From: Methanohalophilus sp.
Lineage (GTDB): Archaea; Halobacteriota; Methanosarcinia; Methanosarcinales; Methanosarcinaceae
Direction of reading: 5' to 3'
Assembly: GCF_030156785.1 (NCBI RefSeq)
Contig: NZ_JASGLW010000002.1
Span: 1 to 64,000, forward strand
DNA: 64,000 nt
Part shown: one piece after another, positions 29,867 to 62,976 of the stretch
Position numbering within the stretch: position 1 is the stretch's first letter
Layout of the letters: each line of letters opens with the position of its first letter
Program-made: the position numbers and the translations under genes
Notes under the pieces: generated by a model
The model's database searches: none
What the model was told of the DNA's origin: nothing
The model's input: the letters and a program-made list of their open reading frames with translations, nothing else

Positions 29867-29898
29867 AATCGCATCTACCAAAAAAGGTGATTTCAACA

Positions 29899-30948
29899 AT
29901 GACTGTTGGCATAGTTTCTTATGGGGCTTACATCCCCAAATATCGTATAAAAGTAGAGGATATAGCTAGGGTTTGGGGAGATGACGCCGATATCCTAAGT
30001 GCGGGACTTATGGTTAACGAGAAATCTGTCCCTGATCTTGATGAGGATACAGCTACCATTGCAGTTGAGGCAGCAAGGGCAGCCATCTGCAGAGCGGGAA
30101 TAAATCCTTCACGTATTGAAGCGGTTTATACCGGTTCAGAGAGTCATCCCTATGCTGTCAAGCCAACCAGTACCATAGTTGCAGAAGCAATCGAGGCAAC
30201 TCCCTCTATGACTGCGGCAGATTTTGAATTTGCCTGCAAGGCAGGTACTGCCGCTATTCAGGCATGTATGGGTCTTGTACAGTCTGGAATGGTGGATCTT
30301 GGAATTGCAATAGGTGCGGATGTTTCCCAGGGTGCTCCGGGTGATGCACTCGAATACACAGCAGCGGCAGGAGGCGTTGCATATATTATCGGCAGCAACG
30401 AATCCGAGATGGTTGCAGTTATCGAAGACACTTTTTCATTTACTACTGATACCCCTGATTTCTGGAGACGCGAAGGAATGCCCTACCCGGAACACGGGGG
30501 TCGCTTTACCGGGGAACCGGGTTATTTCAAACATGTTATGGGCGCGGCACGGGGTCTTATGGAAAAAATGGGCACATCGCCGGAAGATTATGATAATGCT
30601 GTATTCCATCAGCCAAATGGGAAATTCCCTTCAAAGGTAGCGAAAATGCTCGGTTTTAGTAAGGAGCAAATAAAACCCGGTCTTGTGGTTCCATGGTTGG
30701 GAAATACCTATTCCGGTTCTTGCATGATGGGAATAGCTGCAACCCTTGATCAAGCAAAGCCGGGAGATCGGATATTTGCAACTGCATTTGGATCCGGTGC
30801 AGGCGGTGATGCTTTTAGTTTCCGTGTAACAGATCGTATTGATGAAGTAAGGGATCAAGCCCCAAAAGTGGAAGAATTGCTTGCAAACCCTGTTTACATG
30901 GATTATGCCATGTATGCAAAGCATAAGGGCAAGATAAGACTTGGGTGA
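29899..30948 (+). CDS. Hydroxymethylglutaryl-CoA synthase
   Basis: HMG-CoA synthase condenses acetoacetyl-CoA with acetyl-CoA in the mevalonate pathway for archaeal lipids. The 349-residue archaeal form has [13 protein letters not shown] at the start, the nucleophilic cysteine in [12 protein letters not shown], and the [10 protein letters not shown] and [10 protein letters not shown] motifs. An upstream GTG at 29887 is possible, but the ATG at 29899 has AAAGGTGA at ideal distance. In archaea this enzyme works in one complex with thiolase and the DUF35 protein encoded next. Confidence 0.95.
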
Positions 30949-30957
30949 GGGATAAAC

Positions 30958-32130
30958 ATGAGAGACGTAGCTATTATCGGTGTGAAAACTACAAAATTTG
31001 GAGAAATGTGGGGTAGGTCCTTTAGGGATATTGTTGTAGAAGCAGGTGTAGGGGCCCTTGAGGATGCTATGGTTTACGGAGAAGATATCGATAGCATCTT
31101 TGTTGGGAATATGAGCGGAGGACAGTTTGTAGAACAGGAACACATTGGTGCCCTTATTGCGGATTATTCCGGTCTTGCGGGTGAATTGCATATCCCTGCC
31201 ACACGTGTGGAAGCCGCCTGTGCTTCCGGAGGCCTAGCCCTGAGGCATGGAATACTGGCTGTTGCTTCCGGTTACGACGATATTGTTGTTGCAGCAGGTG
31301 TAGAAAAGATGACAGACGTTTCCTCAAGCAGTGCTTCAACTGCCTTGGCAGCGGCGGCAGATCGTGAATGGGAAGGGATGATGGGTGCAACATTCCCGGG
31401 GCTTTATGCAATGATAGCCCGCCTTCACATGCATAAGTACGGTACTACCAGCGAACAACTTGCACAGGTAGCCGTGAAAAACCATGAAAACGGTTCAATG
31501 AACCCAATTGCCCAGTACCACAACAAAATATCCGTAGAACAGGTGCTTAAATCCGTAATGGTTGCTGATCCTTTGCACATATTCGACTGTTCTCCGATTA
31601 CAGACGGTGCAGCAGCAGTTGTGCTGGCTCCTGCGGATATGGCTCGTGAATATACTGATACTCCGATTTATGTTAAAGCAACGGCACAGGCAAGTGATAC
31701 AATCGCACTGCATGATCGCCGCGATATCACTACTCTTGATGCTACAGTACATGCCGGCAAGCGTGCTTATGAAATGGCTGGGCTGGGTCCAAAAGACATC
31801 GATGTAGTTGAAGTACATGACTGTTTCACAATTGCAGAAATTTGTGCGATTGAGGATCTGGGTTTTGTCGAAAAAGGACAGGGTGGAAAAATAACTGAAG
31901 AAGGTCAGACCGCCATAGGAGGCAGCATTCCCATAAACACATCGGGCGGATTGAAGGCATGTGGTCACCCAGTGGGTGCCACAGGTATCAAGCAGGCAGC
32001 TGAAATCGTAACACAACTGCGCGGTGAAGCCGGTAAGCGTCAGGTTGACGGTGCAGAAGTAGGGATGACCCACAATGTAGGTGGTTCAGGTGCTACCGCT
32101 GTGGTTCATATACTTTCGAGGGAGAGGTGA
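30958..32130 (+). CDS. Acetyl-CoA acetyltransferase (thiolase)
   Basis: Thiolase makes acetoacetyl-CoA from two acetyl-CoA. The 390-residue protein has the acyl-binding cysteine in [12 protein letters not shown], and the C-terminal motifs [25 protein letters not shown] and a final [16 protein letters not shown]. It follows HMG-CoA synthase by 9 bp. In Methanothermococcus the thiolase and HMG-CoA synthase form a channel-like complex through DUF35; the same gene set here suggests the same assembly. Confidence 0.95.
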
Positions 32131-32134
32131 GAAA

Positions 32135-32524
32135 ATGTCAGTTCCAAGATTCTGGAGGCAGCAGGTACAGAGGTACAATCTCGTTGGTACACATTGTAAA
32201 AACTGTAATGAATATTATTATCCACCACGGAATACCTGCCCCATCTGCAGAAGGGAAGGTGCAATCGAATCTTATAAATTCAAAGGACTGGGTGAAGTTG
32301 TTTCCTATACAATAATTCACACGGCGGCAGAAGGGTTTGAACACCAGACTCCTTATGTATTGGGAATTGTGAAACTTGATGAAGGTCCCAGGCTTACTTC
32401 ACAGATTGTAGCAGATATTGATGAAGTGGAGATAGGGACAAGGGTCCGCCCGGTTTTCCGCAAATTAGGTCAAAGCGGGGATCGCGGTATGATCTATTAC
32501 GGAACAAAGTTCACTCCGGTCTGA
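32135..32524 (+). CDS. DUF35 OB-fold protein, scaffold of the thiolase/HMG-CoA synthase complex
   Basis: The 129-residue protein has an N-terminal zinc ribbon (CKNCNEYYYPPRNTCPIC) and a C-terminal OB-fold, the standard DUF35 layout. In the archaeal complex it bridges thiolase and HMG-CoA synthase. The frame is open upstream into the thiolase gene, but the ATG at 32135, four bases after the thiolase stop and preceded by GGGAGAGGTGA, is the evident start. Confidence 0.92.
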   Translation: MSVPRFWRQQVQRYNLVGTHCKNCNEYYYPPRNTCPICRREGAIESYKFKGLGEVVSYTIIHTAAEGFEHQTPYVLGIVKLDEGPRLTSQIVADIDEVEIGTRVRPVFRKLGQSGDRGMIYYGTKFTPV

Positions 32525-32528
32525 TTAT

Positions 32529-33047
32529 ATGATCGAAGTAGAGGTCAAGGCGAGGCTTTCTCTTACCCGCGCAAGGGAAGTCTTAAAAGAACTTAAAGCA
32601 AAATTTGTGGAATCAGAGAAGCATTATGACATCTATTACAATGCTCCTCACCGCAATTTTGCCATAACAGATGAAGCCCTCAGACTTCGATTGGTAAACG
32701 GCCGTTCGGTTATGACTTACAAGGGTGAGAAACTGGATGACCTTACAAAGAGCCGAGAAGAGCTCCAGACCACAGTGGAATGGGATTCAACATAGGCAAT
32801 CTTGGATCGACTGGGTTTCACAAAAGCGGCAACAGTTGAAAAACTTCGCGATGTATATAAAGTAGGGGATATTACTGTTTGTCTCGATCAGGTAGACTCA
32901 CTGGGCGAATTTATTGAATTCGAACTGTTTTCAGAAAAAAGCATTGAAGAAAGCCGTGACAAGCTTTTTGAGCTTATGGAGAAATTTGGTTTGGGAGTAG
33001 ACGATTCCATCAGAAAATCTTATATGGAATTGGTGATGGGTGAATAA
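32529..33047 (+). CDS. CYTH-domain protein (class IV adenylate cyclase-like) with in-frame TAG
   Basis: Read across the TAG at 32793-32795, this is a 172-residue CYTH protein of normal length. The first part has the EVEVKARL signature, ALRLRLVNG and MTYKGEKLD; the second has LDRLGFTKAATVEKLRDVYK, VCLDQVDSLGEFIEFEL and IRKSYMEL. Both parts are in one frame with no shift, and the TAG falls at codon 89, between TTVEWDST and AILDRLGF, where relatives have a continuous helix. Pyrrolysine or suppression is likely; a nonsense mutation is the alternative. CYTH enzymes act on triphosphates such as ATP or thiamine triphosphate. The gene starts 4 bp after the DUF35 gene. Confidence 0.82.
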
Positions 33048-33077: not shown

Positions 33078-35123
33078 TTAACCGATATTTGTGCCGGCAT
33101 CTACTTTCTTTTCCGGCTGGAGAAGGATCGCACTACCATTATCATCGATTCCTGCCAGTACCATTCCATTGGATTCAACACCGCACAGCTTTGCAGGCTC
33201 AAGGTTTGCAAGAACGATTACCTGTTTGCCTTTTAAATCCTCGGGATTATGGGTCAGAGCAATTCCTGCAACCACCTGACGCAGATTTTCTTCCCCAAGA
33301 TCAACTTCAAGGCGCAGTAGTTTCTTGGATTTCTTGATCTTCTCGGCATTTACAATGGTACCCACACGCAGGTCTAATTTTGAAAAGTCATCAAATGTGA
33401 TAAGTTCTTTCATCTTTTTTATCTCCTTTTTCTTCTCGGTTCCACTCTCTTTTTCCATCGCTGCTTTCACTCTTCTGGATGCAATGGTTTCCATCTCTTC
33501 GATTTTTTCGTCTTCTATTTTATCAAAGAGGATGGATGGTTTTTCAAGAGTTATCCCGCTTTTTACAGGTGTCAGAGCATCAGCATATCCTGCTGTGTGA
33601 ACATCAGTTTCCATACCTATTTGTTTCCATGCATTTTCCATTTTTTCCGGCAGGATAGGTTCAAAGAGCAGGCAGAGGGCTTTTGCAATCTGGATACAAT
33701 TTTTAATAACTTCGCCACATGCATCCTTATCTTCTTTGATGAGTTTCCATGGTTCGTTGGATTGGAAGTATGTGTTTCCGTATGATGCAAGTGCCATTGT
33801 TGTGTCGGCATATTTTTTAAACTCATAGTTTTCCATTGCTTCGCTGCTGGATTCGATAGTCTTACGGATCTTCTCTATTATTTCAGGTTTTATCTCACCT
33901 TCAGGGATTTCCTTGAAATTCTTAAATGTGAAGAGAAGTGTTCTGTACAGGAAGTTCCCAAAAACACCCACAAGCTCAGTGTTGACCTTGTCCTGGAATA
34001 CCTTCCATGAGAAATTCAGTTCCTTTGTGTGCGAGGTGTAGCTTGCAAGGTAATAGCGAAGCAAATCCGGATGGAATCCGTGATCAAGATAATCCTCACC
34101 AACCCATACAACATATCCGCGACTCTTTGAGAATGTCTTATCCTCAATTTTCACCATTCCCGAGGCAACAACCGCCCATGGCTGGCTGTATCCTGCACCC
34201 TTGAGCATTGCCGGCCAGAAGATACAGTGGTGGTAGATAATGTCTCCTCCGATAAAGTGGATAATACGCCCATCGCCTTTCCAGAACTTCTCCCAGCTTT
34301 CATTGTTTGCTTCTGCCCATTCCTCTGTAAATGCAATATATCCAATAGGAGCATCAACCCAAACATAAACAACAAGGTCATCATGTCCCGGGAATTTAAC
34401 TCCCCACTCAAGGTTTCGGGTGATACACCAGTCAGTAAGTTCCTGCTTGATCCATCCCAGTGCATAATTTTTTGCATTGGTAGTTCCTCCAAGGTTTTCA
34501 AGGTAATCTAGCAGGAAGTCTTTGAATTCCGAAAGCTTGAAGAAAAAGTGCTCCTGTTTTCTATATTCTGCAGGTCCTCCACATGTTGTACAGGTAGGGG
34601 ATTCCAGTTCTCCCGGTTCAAGGTGTTTGCCACATCCCTGATCACACTCGTCACCTCTTGCCTCTTTTTTACAGTGGGGGCATATCCCCTTAACATACCT
34701 GTCCGGCAGGAAGCGGTCACATGAAGGGCAGTAGGCTATCTCGACGATTTTCGGAAATATATAACCGTTTTCGATTAATTTGTTCACAATTTCGGTTGTA
34801 CGATTGTGATTTATGGGGTCATCAGTGGTACCAAAGGCGTCGAACTTCACTCCCACTTTCTTGAAGGTTTCATCAAAGTGCTTGTGATAGATCTTTATCA
34901 GCTCAGCAGGTGTTGTATTCAATTCCTCGGCATTGAACACAATAGGTGTTCCATGCGTGTCGGAACCGCAAACAAAGGTAACTTCCTGACCCATTTTCTT
35001 TAATGAGCGCACGAAAATATCTGCCGGGATATAAGTTCGCAAATGCCCGATGTGAGCCATTCCGTTTGCGTAAGGAAGACCACATGTTACAAGTACGGGT
35101 TTATCAGATGGAAATTGTGACAT
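33078..35123 (-). CDS. metG: Methionyl-tRNA synthetase
   Basis: This 681-residue enzyme charges tRNA-Met. The class I HIGH motif is AHIGHL near residue 24 and the KMSKS motif appears as KTFSKSRGY. The connective domain carries two CxxC zinc knuckles (CPSCDRF, CPHCKK) and further CxxC-type pairs (CDQGCG, CTTCGG). The C-terminal 110 residues form an EMAP-II/Arc1p-type tRNA-binding OB-fold ([18 protein letters not shown]). Size and order fit archaeal MetG with fused OB domain. Confidence 0.96.
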
Positions 35124-39721: not shown

Positions 39722-41344
39722 ATGAAAGGAAGTGACCTGTTTGTCAGGTGTCTGGAAAATGAAGGCGTAGAGTATATTTTTGGGATACCGGGAGAGGAAA
39801 CACTGGATTTTATGGATTCTCTTTCCAGATCAGACATCGAATTTATTGTGGTAAGGCATGAGCAGTCTGCAGCATTCATGGCAGATGCCTACGGACGTTT
39901 GGTGGGCAGGCCAGGAGTATGCCTTTCAACACTGGGGCCGGGCGCTACCAATCTCATAACAGGTGTTGCAGATGCGCATCTTGACAGAGCTCCTCTTGTG
40001 GCAATTACGGGGCAAGGCTCTCTTGACAGGGCATATAAGGAATCGCATCAGATTCTGGATGTTGTGGGATTATTCGACAAAATTACCTCATGGAATGCAA
40101 TCGCCACTGCTGCTCACCAGATTCCAGAGCTGGTAGGGAAGGCTTTTGACATAGCAACGGATGTACCGGGCGCTACCCATATTGAATTGCCTGAAGATGT
40201 TGCTTCGCAGGAAACCGACGCAATACCTCTTGAGAAAAAAAGTTACTCTCATTCCTGCAATTTCGAAGAAAATGAATTGCATAAAGCACTTGAAATGATT
40301 TCGGGAGCTTCAAAGCCATTAATCATCGCAGGAAACGGTGTGATTCGTGAAAACGCTTCTGCCGAGCTGGAACAGTTTGTAGATGCTTCGAATATAGGCG
40401 TTGTAACCACTTTCATGGGAAAAGGTGCAATCAGTGCAGACAATGATCATTTCATTGGTTCTATGGGTATGTCAGAGAAGGATTACATCATGTGCGGACT
40501 CGATGTGGCAGATGTTGTTATTACTGTGGGGTTTGATTCAGTGGAATACAGTCCTGATCACTGGAACAAAAGGGCTACCACAAAAATAATTCATGTACAC
40601 ACCAGGCATCCTGAAATAGAATCCAGCTACATACCCGAATGTGCGCTTATAGGTTCACTTAAGACAACTCTCAAAGCAATGCTTCATAAAATACATGCTA
40701 AGGAATTCCCGAAATATTATCGCAATATCAAGGTTTCCATGGAAAATGAGTTGCTTAATTACAGGGATGATCCGTCTTTTCCGATGAAGCCCCAGCGCAT
40801 TATCTGGGAAGTGCGACAAATTCTGGATCGGGGGGACATTCTGGTAAGTGACGTGGGCGCTCACAAACTCTGGATCGGGAGGCTGTATCCCGCATTTGCC
40901 CCGAATACAGTGCTGATGTCAAACGGGCTGGCTTCCATGGGCTTTGCCCTTCCTGCAGCAATAGCTTCCTGTCTTGTACATCCTGAAAAGAAAATAGTGG
41001 CAATTTCCGGAGACGCAGGATTCCTTATGAACCTGCAGGATCTGGAAACCGCTGTAAGACTGGATTGCGATCTTGTTATTGTTATTTTTGATGATTCATC
41101 CTATGGACTCATCGAGTGGGAATGCAACAGGGAATTTGGCTCTTCTTTTGGTACTACTTTCAAAAATCCCGACTTTGTGGAACTTGCGCATAGTTTTGGT
41201 GCTAGGGGTGTACGTGTGCGCAGCGCTAATGAACTGAGTAATATTTTTCAGGATGCTTTCAATGAGGGTGGCGTCTGGCTTGTGGATGTCCCGGTGGATT
41301 ACTCGGAAAATCTGAAGCTCACATCAATAATGGAAGGTAAATAG
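39722..41344 (+). CDS. Thiamine-diphosphate enzyme, acetolactate synthase large-subunit family
   Basis: The 540-residue product has the three ThDP-enzyme domains. The catalytic glutamate is in VVRHEQSAAFMADAYGR, the N-terminal domain ends near residue 180, and the ThDP-binding block is SGDAGFLMNLQDLETAVRL followed by FDDSSYGLIEWE. GDA replaces the common GDG. No small regulatory subunit is nearby, so it may be a catabolic or special-purpose enzyme working with the aldehyde dehydrogenase before it. The ATG at 39722 has AAGGG upstream. It ends in TAG, with TAA three codons later. Confidence 0.85.
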   Translation: MKGSDLFVRCLENEGVEYIFGIPGEETLDFMDSLSRSDIEFIVVRHEQSAAFMADAYGRLVGRPGVCLSTLGPGATNLITGVADAHLDRAPLVAITGQGSLDRAYKESHQILDVVGLFDKITSWNAIATAAHQIPELVGKAFDIATDVPGATHIELPEDVASQETDAIPLEKKSYSHSCNFEENELHKALEMISGASKPLIIAGNGVIRENASAELEQFVDASNIGVVTTFMGKGAISADNDHFIGSMGMSEKDYIMCGLDVADVVITVGFDSVEYSPDHWNKRATTKIIHVHTRHPEIESSYIPECALIGSLKTTLKAMLHKIHAKEFPKYYRNIKVSMENELLNYRDDPSFPMKPQRIIWEVRQILDRGDILVSDVGAHKLWIGRLYPAFAPNTVLMSNGLASMGFALPAAIASCLVHPEKKIVAISGDAGFLMNLQDLETAVRLDCDLVIVIFDDSSYGLIEWECNREFGSSFGTTFKNPDFVELAHSFGARGVRVRSANELSNIFQDAFNEGGVWLVDVPVDYSENLKLTSIMEGK

Positions 41345-60055: not shown

Positions 60056-60604
60056 ATGGTTGACATCGTTGTAAATTCATCTGAACGTATACGTAAAATG
60101 GTCTATGCTTCCCTGTTTGCATCAATGAGTTCAGTAGGGGCCTACATGGTAATCCCAATAGGTGGGCCGGTTCCGATAACCCTTCAGTTATTGTTTGTAT
60201 TCTTTGCGGGGGCATTCTTAGGTGCTCGTTGGGGTATGACCAGCATGCTTGTTTACCTTCTTCTTGGAATTGCAGGACTCCCTGTTTTTGCCGGAGGTGC
60301 AGCAGGGTTGGGTGTGCTTCTTGGTCCCACAGGTGGTTACTTGTTAGGATTTGTGGCAGCAGCCTATGTGATAGGTTATCTGGTAGAGCATTTCCCCACC
60401 AAATCATTTTTCCGTGTTTCACTCTATTTCCTTGCGGGAATGGTTACAATTTACGTATTTGGCTATCTGCAGCTTATTTATGTGGCATCCCTCACCCCCA
60501 AGGAAGCATTCATTATAGGGATAGCTCCGTTTATACTTCTTGATGCCATTAAGGCGATCGCTGCGGCCGTATTGTTTACACACTTGGATATGAGCTATGA
60601 TTGA
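60056..60604 (+). CDS. bioY: BioY-family biotin-binding S component of an ECF transporter
   Basis: BioY is the membrane S component that binds biotin. The 182-residue protein has five to six hydrophobic helices and the family motifs GGPVPITLQ, GARWG, and LLGPTGGYLLGF. It is followed by two ATPase genes and the T component, giving a complete ECF module. An upstream TTG at 60035 is open, but the TATA box position fits the ATG at 60056. The last eight bases overlap ecfA1. Confidence 0.93.
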   Translation: MVDIVVNSSERIRKMVYASLFASMSSVGAYMVIPIGGPVPITLQLLFVFFAGAFLGARWGMTSMLVYLLLGIAGLPVFAGGAAGLGVLLGPTGGYLLGFVAAAYVIGYLVEHFPTKSFFRVSLYFLAGMVTIYVFGYLQLIYVASLTPKEAFIIGIAPFILLDAIKAIAAAVLFTHLDMSYD

Positions 60605-61406
60605 AACAAAAAATCTGTCATTTCGGTATTCTGGGGATGATTACATCCTCAGGAATATAAATATTAAGATAACAACCGGTGAATATGTTGCAATTGTGGG
60701 GGAGAACGGTAGTGGTAAATCAACTCTGGCGCGACATCTCAACGGCTTGTTGATTCCTACTGAAGGTTCTGTGAACGTTTTTGGAATGAACACGGCTGAT
60801 AAATCCTGCTTGCAGCAAATCCGTCAGACAGTAGGAATGGTTTTTCAGGATCCAATGACACAATTTGTAGGTGCTACGGTTTGGGAAGACGTCGCTTTTG
60901 GGCCATCAAACCTCTGCTTTCCCCGGAAGGAAATGCTTGAAGCTATTGAGTCATCACTTGCAAGTGTTGGAATGGATATGTTCAAAAAGAGATCCCCTTC
61001 CCAGCTCAGCGGTGGCCAGATGCAGCTGGCTGCAATTGCAGGAGTATTGGCAATGAAACCAAAATGCCTGGTTTTTGATGAATCGGTTTCAATGCTTGAT
61101 TCAGATACCAAAGAAAAAATAATTTCCGTAATCAGAAAATTGCATTCCGAAGGAAAAACTATCATCCAAATTGCTCACAATCTGGATGAAATAAACCACG
61201 CTGAGAGGGTTATTGCTCTGAAAAACGGTGAGGTTTTCTATGACGGGAAAATGGAACCTTTTCTTGGAGATTAGATCTTCTGGGAAGCAGGTCTGGAAAT
61301 ACCTCCCATTATGGAACTTTCCCTGAGACTCAAGCAGGCAGGTATTGTTGAAAATATATCATGTGATGTGAATGTATTGGTGGAGGGCATATGCCGATTC
61401 AGGTAA
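60597..61406 (+). CDS. ecfA1: ECF transporter ATPase EcfA1, with in-frame TAG
   Basis: Reading across the TAG at 61272-61274 gives a 269-residue ATPase. Walker A is GENGSGKST, the Q-loop region FQDPMTQFVGATVWEDVAFG, signature LSGGQ and Walker B CLVFDES. The 43 codons after the TAG (codon 226), IFWEAGLEIPPIMELSLRL and onward, match the C-terminal segment (GL-x-x-P-x-x-x-x-L) found in other CbiO/EcfA proteins. They end in TAA at 61404 inside the start of ecfA2. If TAG were a stop, the ATPase would lack this segment and leave an odd 116-base gap. UAG decoding, probably as pyrrolysine, is likely. Confidence 0.85.
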
Positions 61407-62203
61407 AAAACATAAGCTTTTCCTATTCAAATGATAAACCGGTGCTATCCGGCATTTCTATTTGTCTGAACAGGGGTGAAGTCTCCGGGCTTATGGGAGA
61501 CATTGGTTCTGGCAAATCCACGCTTATCAGACATCTCAATGGGTTGCTACTACCAGATAGTGGGTTGGTTATAGTGGATGATATTCCTGCATCTAATAAA
61601 AAAGCCAGAAAGCTTGTTGGTGTTCTTTTCCAGCACCCTTCCAGACAGTTGTTTGAACAAACTGTTTTCGATGACATCGCATTCGGTCCGAAAAATTATG
61701 GTTTAAAAGGGAATGACCTCAAAAAAACAGTCTTTGAAGCTGCAGATCTTGTGGGTCTGGGAAAAGAGTTGCTTGATCTTTCACCTCACAGGTTGAGTGG
61801 TGGCGAGAAAAAACTTGCATGTTTTGCAGGTATAATTGCCTGTTCACCTCGCTATTTGATTCTTGACGAACCTTTCAGTGGATTGGATAGTGTTTCCCGA
61901 AGCAGGATGGTAAATAGCATTGTAAAGTTGAAAGCAAGTGGATGTGGGATTTTAATAGCATCCCATCATTTTGATACATTTGTCGGGTTAGTTGACAGGA
62001 TTCTATTCCTTGAAAATGGGGGAATTGTTTATGACGGATCTCCAGAGTCCTTTGCTTCAGATTACCCTTTGCAATCTTCCACAATTGCTGCATTGATTTC
62101 CGTATTGCAAAGAAAGGGTATAGACATATCTCCTACGGATTTCACAGTTGAAAAAGCATTTGAAGCAATTCTCTCTGCCTGTAAAAAGGAGGGCACTGGA
62201 TGA
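61391..62203 (+). CDS. ecfA2: ECF transporter ATPase EcfA2
   Basis: The 270-residue ABC ATPase has Walker A GDIGSGKST, Q-loop FQHPSRQLFEQTVFDDIAFGP, signature LSGGEKK and Walker B YLILDEPFSGLD. It pairs with EcfA1 to drive the T component. It is complete without any internal TAG. Its ATG overlaps the read-through end of ecfA1, has GGAGGG before it, and its stop overlaps ecfT (ATGA). Confidence 0.94.
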   Translation: MPIQVKNISFSYSNDKPVLSGISICLNRGEVSGLMGDIGSGKSTLIRHLNGLLLPDSGLVIVDDIPASNKKARKLVGVLFQHPSRQLFEQTVFDDIAFGPKNYGLKGNDLKKTVFEAADLVGLGKELLDLSPHRLSGGEKKLACFAGIIACSPRYLILDEPFSGLDSVSRSRMVNSIVKLKASGCGILIASHHFDTFVGLVDRILFLENGGIVYDGSPESFASDYPLQSSTIAALISVLQRKGIDISPTDFTVEKAFEAILSACKKEGTG

Positions 62204-62976
62204 GAAAATATGATTTTTTTGGGTTTGTTATAAGCAACTCATTTGTTCATAAACTAGATCCAAGAGCCAAGCTTTTTGCCCTTATTGGATTAAGCATTTT
62301 AATATTCAGGATATCGGCATTTCAGAATCTGCTTTTTCCTTTAACCATCTTCATTATGGCAGCATATTTTTCCGGGACATCGATAAAGAGACATGTTTTG
62401 TCTGTCCGTCCACTAATTCCGTTTCTTATTGCCATCTTCTTGTTCCATTTTCTGCTGACCCCGGGTCAGGAATCAATTGGATTCTAGTGTTTTTCGATTT
62501 CGATTGAAGGACTACTCAGCGGCTTCCTTGTGATAGGACGCTTTATTCTGCTGCTTCTTTTTGCTTCTCTCTTTTCAGCAACGACTTCTCCTGCAATGCT
62601 TGCGCAGGCAATTGAAGCAATTTTAAAACCAATCCCCGTCCACCGGCTGGGGGTGACAACTTCTGAAATTGCCACAATGATGGCATTATCAATGAATTTG
62701 TTTCCGCTTCTTTTGCATTATATGGAAGAAGTCAGGGATGCCCAGCTTTCAAGGGGTTTAGGAAATAAGTTCATGATATCCGGAATATTTTCTCTAATAA
62801 TTCCTTTTTTTTCAGGAAGCATGAGACTGGCAGATGATATCTCAGTTGCGATGGAAAGTCGATGCTATCATGGCGGGTTAAGAACACAACTCTATGAAAT
62901 GAAATATAAAAATACAGACTATGGCTTAACTGCTCTCACAGCCATAATATTATTGATGTCAGTTTTTTATTTATGA
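62200..62976 (+). CDS. ecfT: ECF transporter T component EcfT, with in-frame TAG
   Basis: Reading across the TAG at 62485-62487 (codon 96) gives a 258-residue protein, the normal EcfT length. Before the TAG are FVHKLDPRAKLFALIGLSIL and two helices; after it are IEGLLSGFLVIGRFILLLL, TTSPAML, and the two coupling motifs EVRDAQLSRGL and MESRCYHGGLR that bind the ATPases. All key motifs lie on the distal side, so a stop at TAG would give a useless protein. The frame is unbroken otherwise. Pyrrolysine or UAG suppression is likely. Confidence 0.85.

Follow-up and report, generated by a model that had tools for sequence, protein, structure and literature searches.

A single in-frame TAG in a CYTH gene of Methanohalophilus and its probable reading as pyrrolysine

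The CYTH gene at this locus contains one in-frame TAG, and the question is whether this codon destroys the gene or is read as an amino acid. The window (the whole stretch of DNA that was analysed, 64,000 nucleotides) belongs to a genome of the genus Methanohalophilus (G000) of 1,550,882 bases on 19 contigs, 94.6% complete. With a probability of about 0.9, we read the gene as intact: UAG would effectively be a sense codon for pyrrolysine (Pyl) in the genus, the TAG would have arisen near-neutrally from CAG, and the full-length protein would be made.

The CYTH gene and the position of its TAG

The gene lies between the following neighbours:

29887..30948, + strand: HMG-CoA synthase (TIGR00748, NF003274)
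30958..32130, + strand: thiolase (acetyl-CoA acetyltransferase; NF053570, 690 bits)
32135..32524, + strand: DUF35/ChsH2-type zinc-ribbon OB protein (Pfam OB_ChsH2_C, zf-ChsH2)
32529..33047, + strand: CYTH / triphosphate tunnel enzyme gene, 172 codons when read through, ATG to TAA (Pfam, TIGR00318)
32793..32795, + strand: in-frame TAG, codon 89; CAG (Gln) in the sister genome G033 (sequence and sister comparison)
33078..35123, - strand: methionyl-tRNA synthetase, convergent neighbour downstream of CYTH (Pfam tRNA-synt_1g)

From its ATG at 32529 the CYTH frame runs for 88 codons to the TAG and is then open to the TAA at 33045-33047. The TAG is codon 89 of 172, there is no other in-frame stop within the gene, and the remainder is intact. 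This agrees with the preliminary description, which had placed both halves in one frame with only a TAG between them. The read-through protein of 172 residues is matched over its whole length by Pfam CYTH (residues 1-165, profile 1-179, E 1.8e-34) and also by TIGR00318 (E 1.5e-44). The latter model supplies the name class IV adenylate cyclase, and cyclase activity is predicted from this name. A search of the whole genome finds one CYTH gene, with this one TAG inside. The start lies four bases past the DUF35-type gene, which ends with TGA, as had been described, and DUF35 is directly upstream of CYTH in 28 of the 30 family loci examined. The label of a mevalonate operon suits the HMG-CoA synthase, thiolase and DUF35 genes, but the function of CYTH is tied to mevalonate only by the conserved gene order.

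The ExExK motif is a mark of the CYTH / triphosphate tunnel metalloenzyme family, and its residues E3, E5 and K7 are invariant at the N-terminus (residues 3-7). Further conserved residues, K105, R107, D120, E130 and E132, follow the TAG. The Pfam match covers the full tunnel domain, and the structure model has eight strands with a mean pLDDT of 93.8. Codon 89 falls inside a predicted helix (85-94) just before LGF, which bears out the earlier placement in a helix ahead of an LG-F motif. The strands 98-112, 115-122 and 126-135 come after codon 89, so the predicted barrel of a product ending at residue 88 would be incomplete. Among solved structures the nearest is that of the triphosphate tunnel metalloenzyme Saci_0718 (PDB 7ns8 and others; E 1.2e-26, full-length alignment). 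At the putative Pyl site of CYTH it carries an ordinary residue, which reads as Asp in the printed alignment.

The sister genome keeps CAG at codon 89, so a single C-to-T change explains the TAG. CYTH is found in 107 of 111 family genomes, and the stop is inside the gene in G000 only, the best matches in the other 106 being uninterrupted. The TAG itself is seen in one genome of the species; none of the 80 relatives from a contig search, which may omit records close to the window, was labelled as Methanohalophilus, and there was no viral-contig match. Against the sister genome, dN/dS of CYTH is 0.117 before the TAG and 0.067 after it, and pooled over eight TAG genes it is 0.084 before and 0.091 after. 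Purifying selection continues beyond the TAG, and the gene has neither further lesions nor relaxed selection downstream. Decay in relatives had been named as an outcome that would overturn read-through, and the family genomes with CYTH give no sign of it.

Site 89 itself is one of the freest in the protein. Across 109 homologues (a subset of 29 family loci and the 80 contig-search relatives) the residue is Q, I, R, K, E, S, G, A, T, D or N, and the entropy of the site exceeds that of 161 of the 172 positions. The suggested comparison with homologues for Lys, Pyl or another residue gave Gln in the sister and free variation elsewhere. Directly after the TAG, where a PYLIS would be a stable stem-loop, no stable structure was found (z +0.44; an equal or better fold was obtained for 128 of 200 shuffled sequences).

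TAG inside conserved genes and as a terminator

To a sample of 331,666 bases, or 21% of the genome, we aligned the open reading frames of three relatives, the sister genome G033, the congener G034 and G083 from another genus of the same family. With spurious rows removed, the comparison with G033 (165 genes) yields eight interior TAG codons in seven genes. The comparison with G034 (93 genes) gives seven TAG, no TAA and no TGA, and that with G083 (27 genes) adds one further TAG-interrupted gene. In total, ten in-frame TAG codons lie in nine conserved genes; none of the full-length conserved genes in the 332-kb sample is broken by TAA or TGA. In-frame TAG in many unrelated conserved genes, with other stops absent, is the pattern of a TAG used as a sense codon throughout. 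By profile, the interrupted genes belong to CYTH, an ABC ATPase, CbiQ, a TPP enzyme, an Elp3-type protein, a class-I glutamine amidotransferase and a glycosyltransferase (two TAGs); two more are, we assume, a ModE-like regulator and a methyltransferase. If single-step mutation sets the type of stop, nine of nine with TAG has a chance of 4e-5 to 2e-4, a caveat being that some sites are two steps from the sister codon.

Three of these TAGs lie in the window besides that of CYTH:

41342..41344, + strand: TAG three codons ahead of TAA in the TPP-dependent enzyme gene; the sister has Tyr there and the same end
61272..61274, + strand: second in-frame TAG, in the ABC-transporter ATPase gene 60597-61406 (relatives' alignment, profile family)
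62485..62487, + strand: third in-frame TAG, in the CbiQ-type cobalt transport gene 62200-62976 (relatives' alignment, profile family)

The TAG at 41342 fails the rule of 15 flanking residues and was added by inspection. CYTH had been counted as the third UAG case within 31 kb; this count holds with the sites at 61272 and 62485, and 41342 is a fourth. The accompanying view that chance nonsense mutations are unlikely is borne out by the uniform use of TAG in the nine full-length genes.

The rows removed with G000 as the subject were TAG C9:61312 and TGA C9:67608, which precede a conserved Met start in both cases; TGA C17:67081 and TAA C17:67078, in 51 residues of a 92-codon frame judged spurious; and two TAA at C9:42508 and 42499 in a decayed gene remnant with 70 of 276 residues aligned. 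Counting this remnant as a gene would leave TAG with nine of ten. With G033 as the subject three of five rows were removed: TAA 211914 as an upstream extension, TAA 368189 as antisense and TAG 247038 as spurious. The remnant itself (C9:42422-42628), presumably of an UppP-like gene, is intact in G033 and has the look of real decay in G000.

G033 has two interior TAGs of its own in genes intact in G000 and G034 has one, so the pattern seems to be common to at least the genus. The G034 site (C1, around 271088; L163) is Gln in both G000 and G033, in a gene that we take to resemble phosphopantetheine adenylyltransferase.

As a terminator, TAG is nearly absent. Six of 244 non-overlapping open reading frames of at least 150 residues in the G000 sample end at TAG, and five of these ends are internal codons (TPP enzyme, Elp3, ABC ATPase, MtmB, amidotransferase). 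With these set aside, one real end among 244 long frames is left, that of pylB. TAG-ended long frames number 10 of 429 in G033, 2 of 138 in G034 and 6 of 133 in G083, most of those in G033 and G083 not judged singly. In the G083 sample (L165 to L174) two of the six run on for 111 and 161 codons beyond the TAG, as would be expected of Pyl methyltransferases.

Pyrrolysine machinery and the pylB end

The preliminary description had named absence of a Pyl system as a refutation, and a complete one is present. A tRNA-Pyl with CTA anticodon lies on contig C9 (ARAGORN; L003 6923-6994); Rfam at gathering thresholds reports nothing at the pyl locus, though ARAGORN finds the tRNA there. PylS is found, PylB scores above the TIGR03910 cut-off, and pylS, pylB, pylC and pylD form one cluster on C9, in which we take two genes to be pylC and pylD by position and sequence. 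The methylamine methyltransferase gene mtmB carries one in-frame TAG, as in Pyl-decoding archaea. One gene scores above the aRF1 cut-off with its NIKS motif intact, so UAG may still act as a terminator biochemically. For the genus, Pyl (residue mass about 237 Da) at the UAG of MttB has been identified by mass spectrometry in M. portucalensis, according to the part of PMC4928046 consulted. A statement in a review that Methanohalophilus is without a Pyl system (PMC8211752, in the excerpted text) is contradicted by this result and by the genomes analysed here.

The exception among terminators, pylB (C9:38311-39363; L232), has TAG as its stop in 35 of the 40 family loci that were read (the 30 best-scoring and 10 chosen, out of 111 genomes searched) and in eight of eight within the genus. 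It is the sole TAG terminator common to orthologues of G000 and G033, and in both an open extension of 39 codons follows the TAG. In the portion of PMC2933860 available, the pylB stop is given as TAG for M. mazei, M. acetivorans and M. burtonii and as TAA for M. barkeri. Retention of this TAG in genomes that otherwise avoid TAG stops suggests a sensor for Pyl. With plentiful charged Pyl-tRNA, PylB would gain a 40-residue tail overlapping the start of pylC; with scarce charged Pyl-tRNA, PylB would end normally and Pyl synthesis would recover. The joint proposal that UAG is no terminator in the genus except in pylB, that the pylB UAG senses Pyl and that housekeeping enzymes with internal UAG depend on Pyl is doubtful as a whole. 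If it were true, CYTH, the glutamine amidotransferase, the Elp3-type protein and others would depend on the Pyl supply, and core metabolism would be linked to the amino acid required for methylamine use.

Alternative explanations and the reading of the CYTH TAG

That the TAG is an ordinary nonsense mutation and CYTH a gene just lost is unlikely. The stop is in this species only and one mutation from CAG, which may be too recent for decay to have followed, and true decay does occur in this genome, as the UppP-like remnant illustrates. However, dN/dS is unchanged downstream of the TAG, and the same stop type interrupts all nine full-length conserved genes, the glutamine amidotransferase, Elp3-type and CbiQ genes among them. 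At several TAG sites the sister codon (CAC, AAC, GAA) differs by two substitutions, which argues that these are not brand-new lesions. A sequencing or assembly error with C as the true base at 32793 would need a single base in an assembly of 19 contigs, but such errors would not favour TAG over other stops. Moreover, interior TAGs occur in the relatives too: two in G033, and one in G034, a genome on one contig of 2,012,424 bases, where the affected gene is conserved in both G000 and G033. We regard an error as very improbable.

Programmed recoding specific to this gene, through a PYLIS-like element further along the mRNA and with a special role of Pyl in CYTH, is just as remote. The same genome has a strong downstream structure at mtmB (z -2.05), but the folding result at CYTH led us to reject this candidate. 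Eight other TAG sites also have no downstream structure (z -0.81 to +1.53), and no residue, Lys and Pyl included, is conserved at site 89. A split gene, in which polypeptides 1-88 and about 92-172 associate, is hardly credible. A TTG at 32802 could start the second half, but no sequence like a ribosome-binding site is apparent ahead of it by eye, the best matches in the other 106 family genomes have no such stop, and the predicted fold requires strands of both halves.

The reading that remains is decoding of UAG as Pyl. TAGs in unrelated genes and the near-absence of TAG as a stop place the CYTH TAG within genome-wide UAG decoding, and on our best reading it is one near-neutral instance of what is seen elsewhere in the genome. 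The earlier interpretation thus stands as far as it preferred read-through to nonsense, given the Pyl system and the lack of decay, but it does not stand as an individual, gene-specific candidate with a meaningful residue. We infer that Pyl-tRNA-Pyl(CUA) reads the UAG of the CYTH mRNA at codon 89, giving the full-length triphosphate tunnel protein, and our views on its efficiency and on the neutrality of the change are drawn in the same way. If UAG is effectively a Pyl sense codon in the genus, the single step from the Gln codon would be near-neutral, and the TAG would persist by tolerance of Pyl at a variable helix position. The likely mechanism of decoding is competition between Pyl-tRNA and aRF1, as proposed in the accessible part of PMC9499178. 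A fraction of ribosomes may still stop at codon 89 and release a fragment of 88 residues without three strands of the predicted barrel. By analogy with an M. acetivorans reporter, for which an extract of PMC2933860 gives UAG read-through of only about 20-30%, truncation could be substantial. Against a full sense reading stand the aRF1 gene, the pylB end at TAG and a sample of 21% of the genome.

Archaea with a Pyl code, in which all TAG codons are read as pyrrolysine, have reportedly been described by Kivenson et al. (Science 2025). Similar to that code, we observe Pyl machinery, near-absence of TAG as a stop and TAG in many unrelated conserved genes; in contrast to it, the evidence in the present case is sequence from a sample of 21% of the genome, and TAG is still the stop of pylB.

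Outside the methyltransferases, in-frame amber codons are listed for Thg1 and transposases in the section of PMC8211752 at hand. Thg1 of Methanosarcina acetivorans is reported to have gained Pyl by neutral evolution (Heinemann et al. 2009, as cited in passages of PMC8211752 and PMC2933860); it is a different gene and was tested experimentally, whereas CYTH is known from sequence. Closer is the citrate synthase of Methanohalophilus mahii, annotated as a pseudogene with an amber codon for which Pyl was suggested (PMC3017947, in the text available). It probably shares the genus and likewise has the codon inside a housekeeping gene, but it is a different gene and was noted there as a single case and not as a genome-wide pattern. 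The CYTH TAG is very probably a further case of this already known altered codon use.

Standard annotation would truncate CYTH, the glutamine amidotransferase, the Elp3-type protein, CbiQ and others as pseudogenes, and reading TAG as Pyl would clear this whole class of annotation errors in the genus. The interrupted genes encode ordinary proteins that seem to have acquired Pyl by drift, and this set is suited to asking what Pyl does to proteins that do not need it. The genus would also be suited to testing whether a stop codon can be fully captured with one ordinary-looking release factor left.
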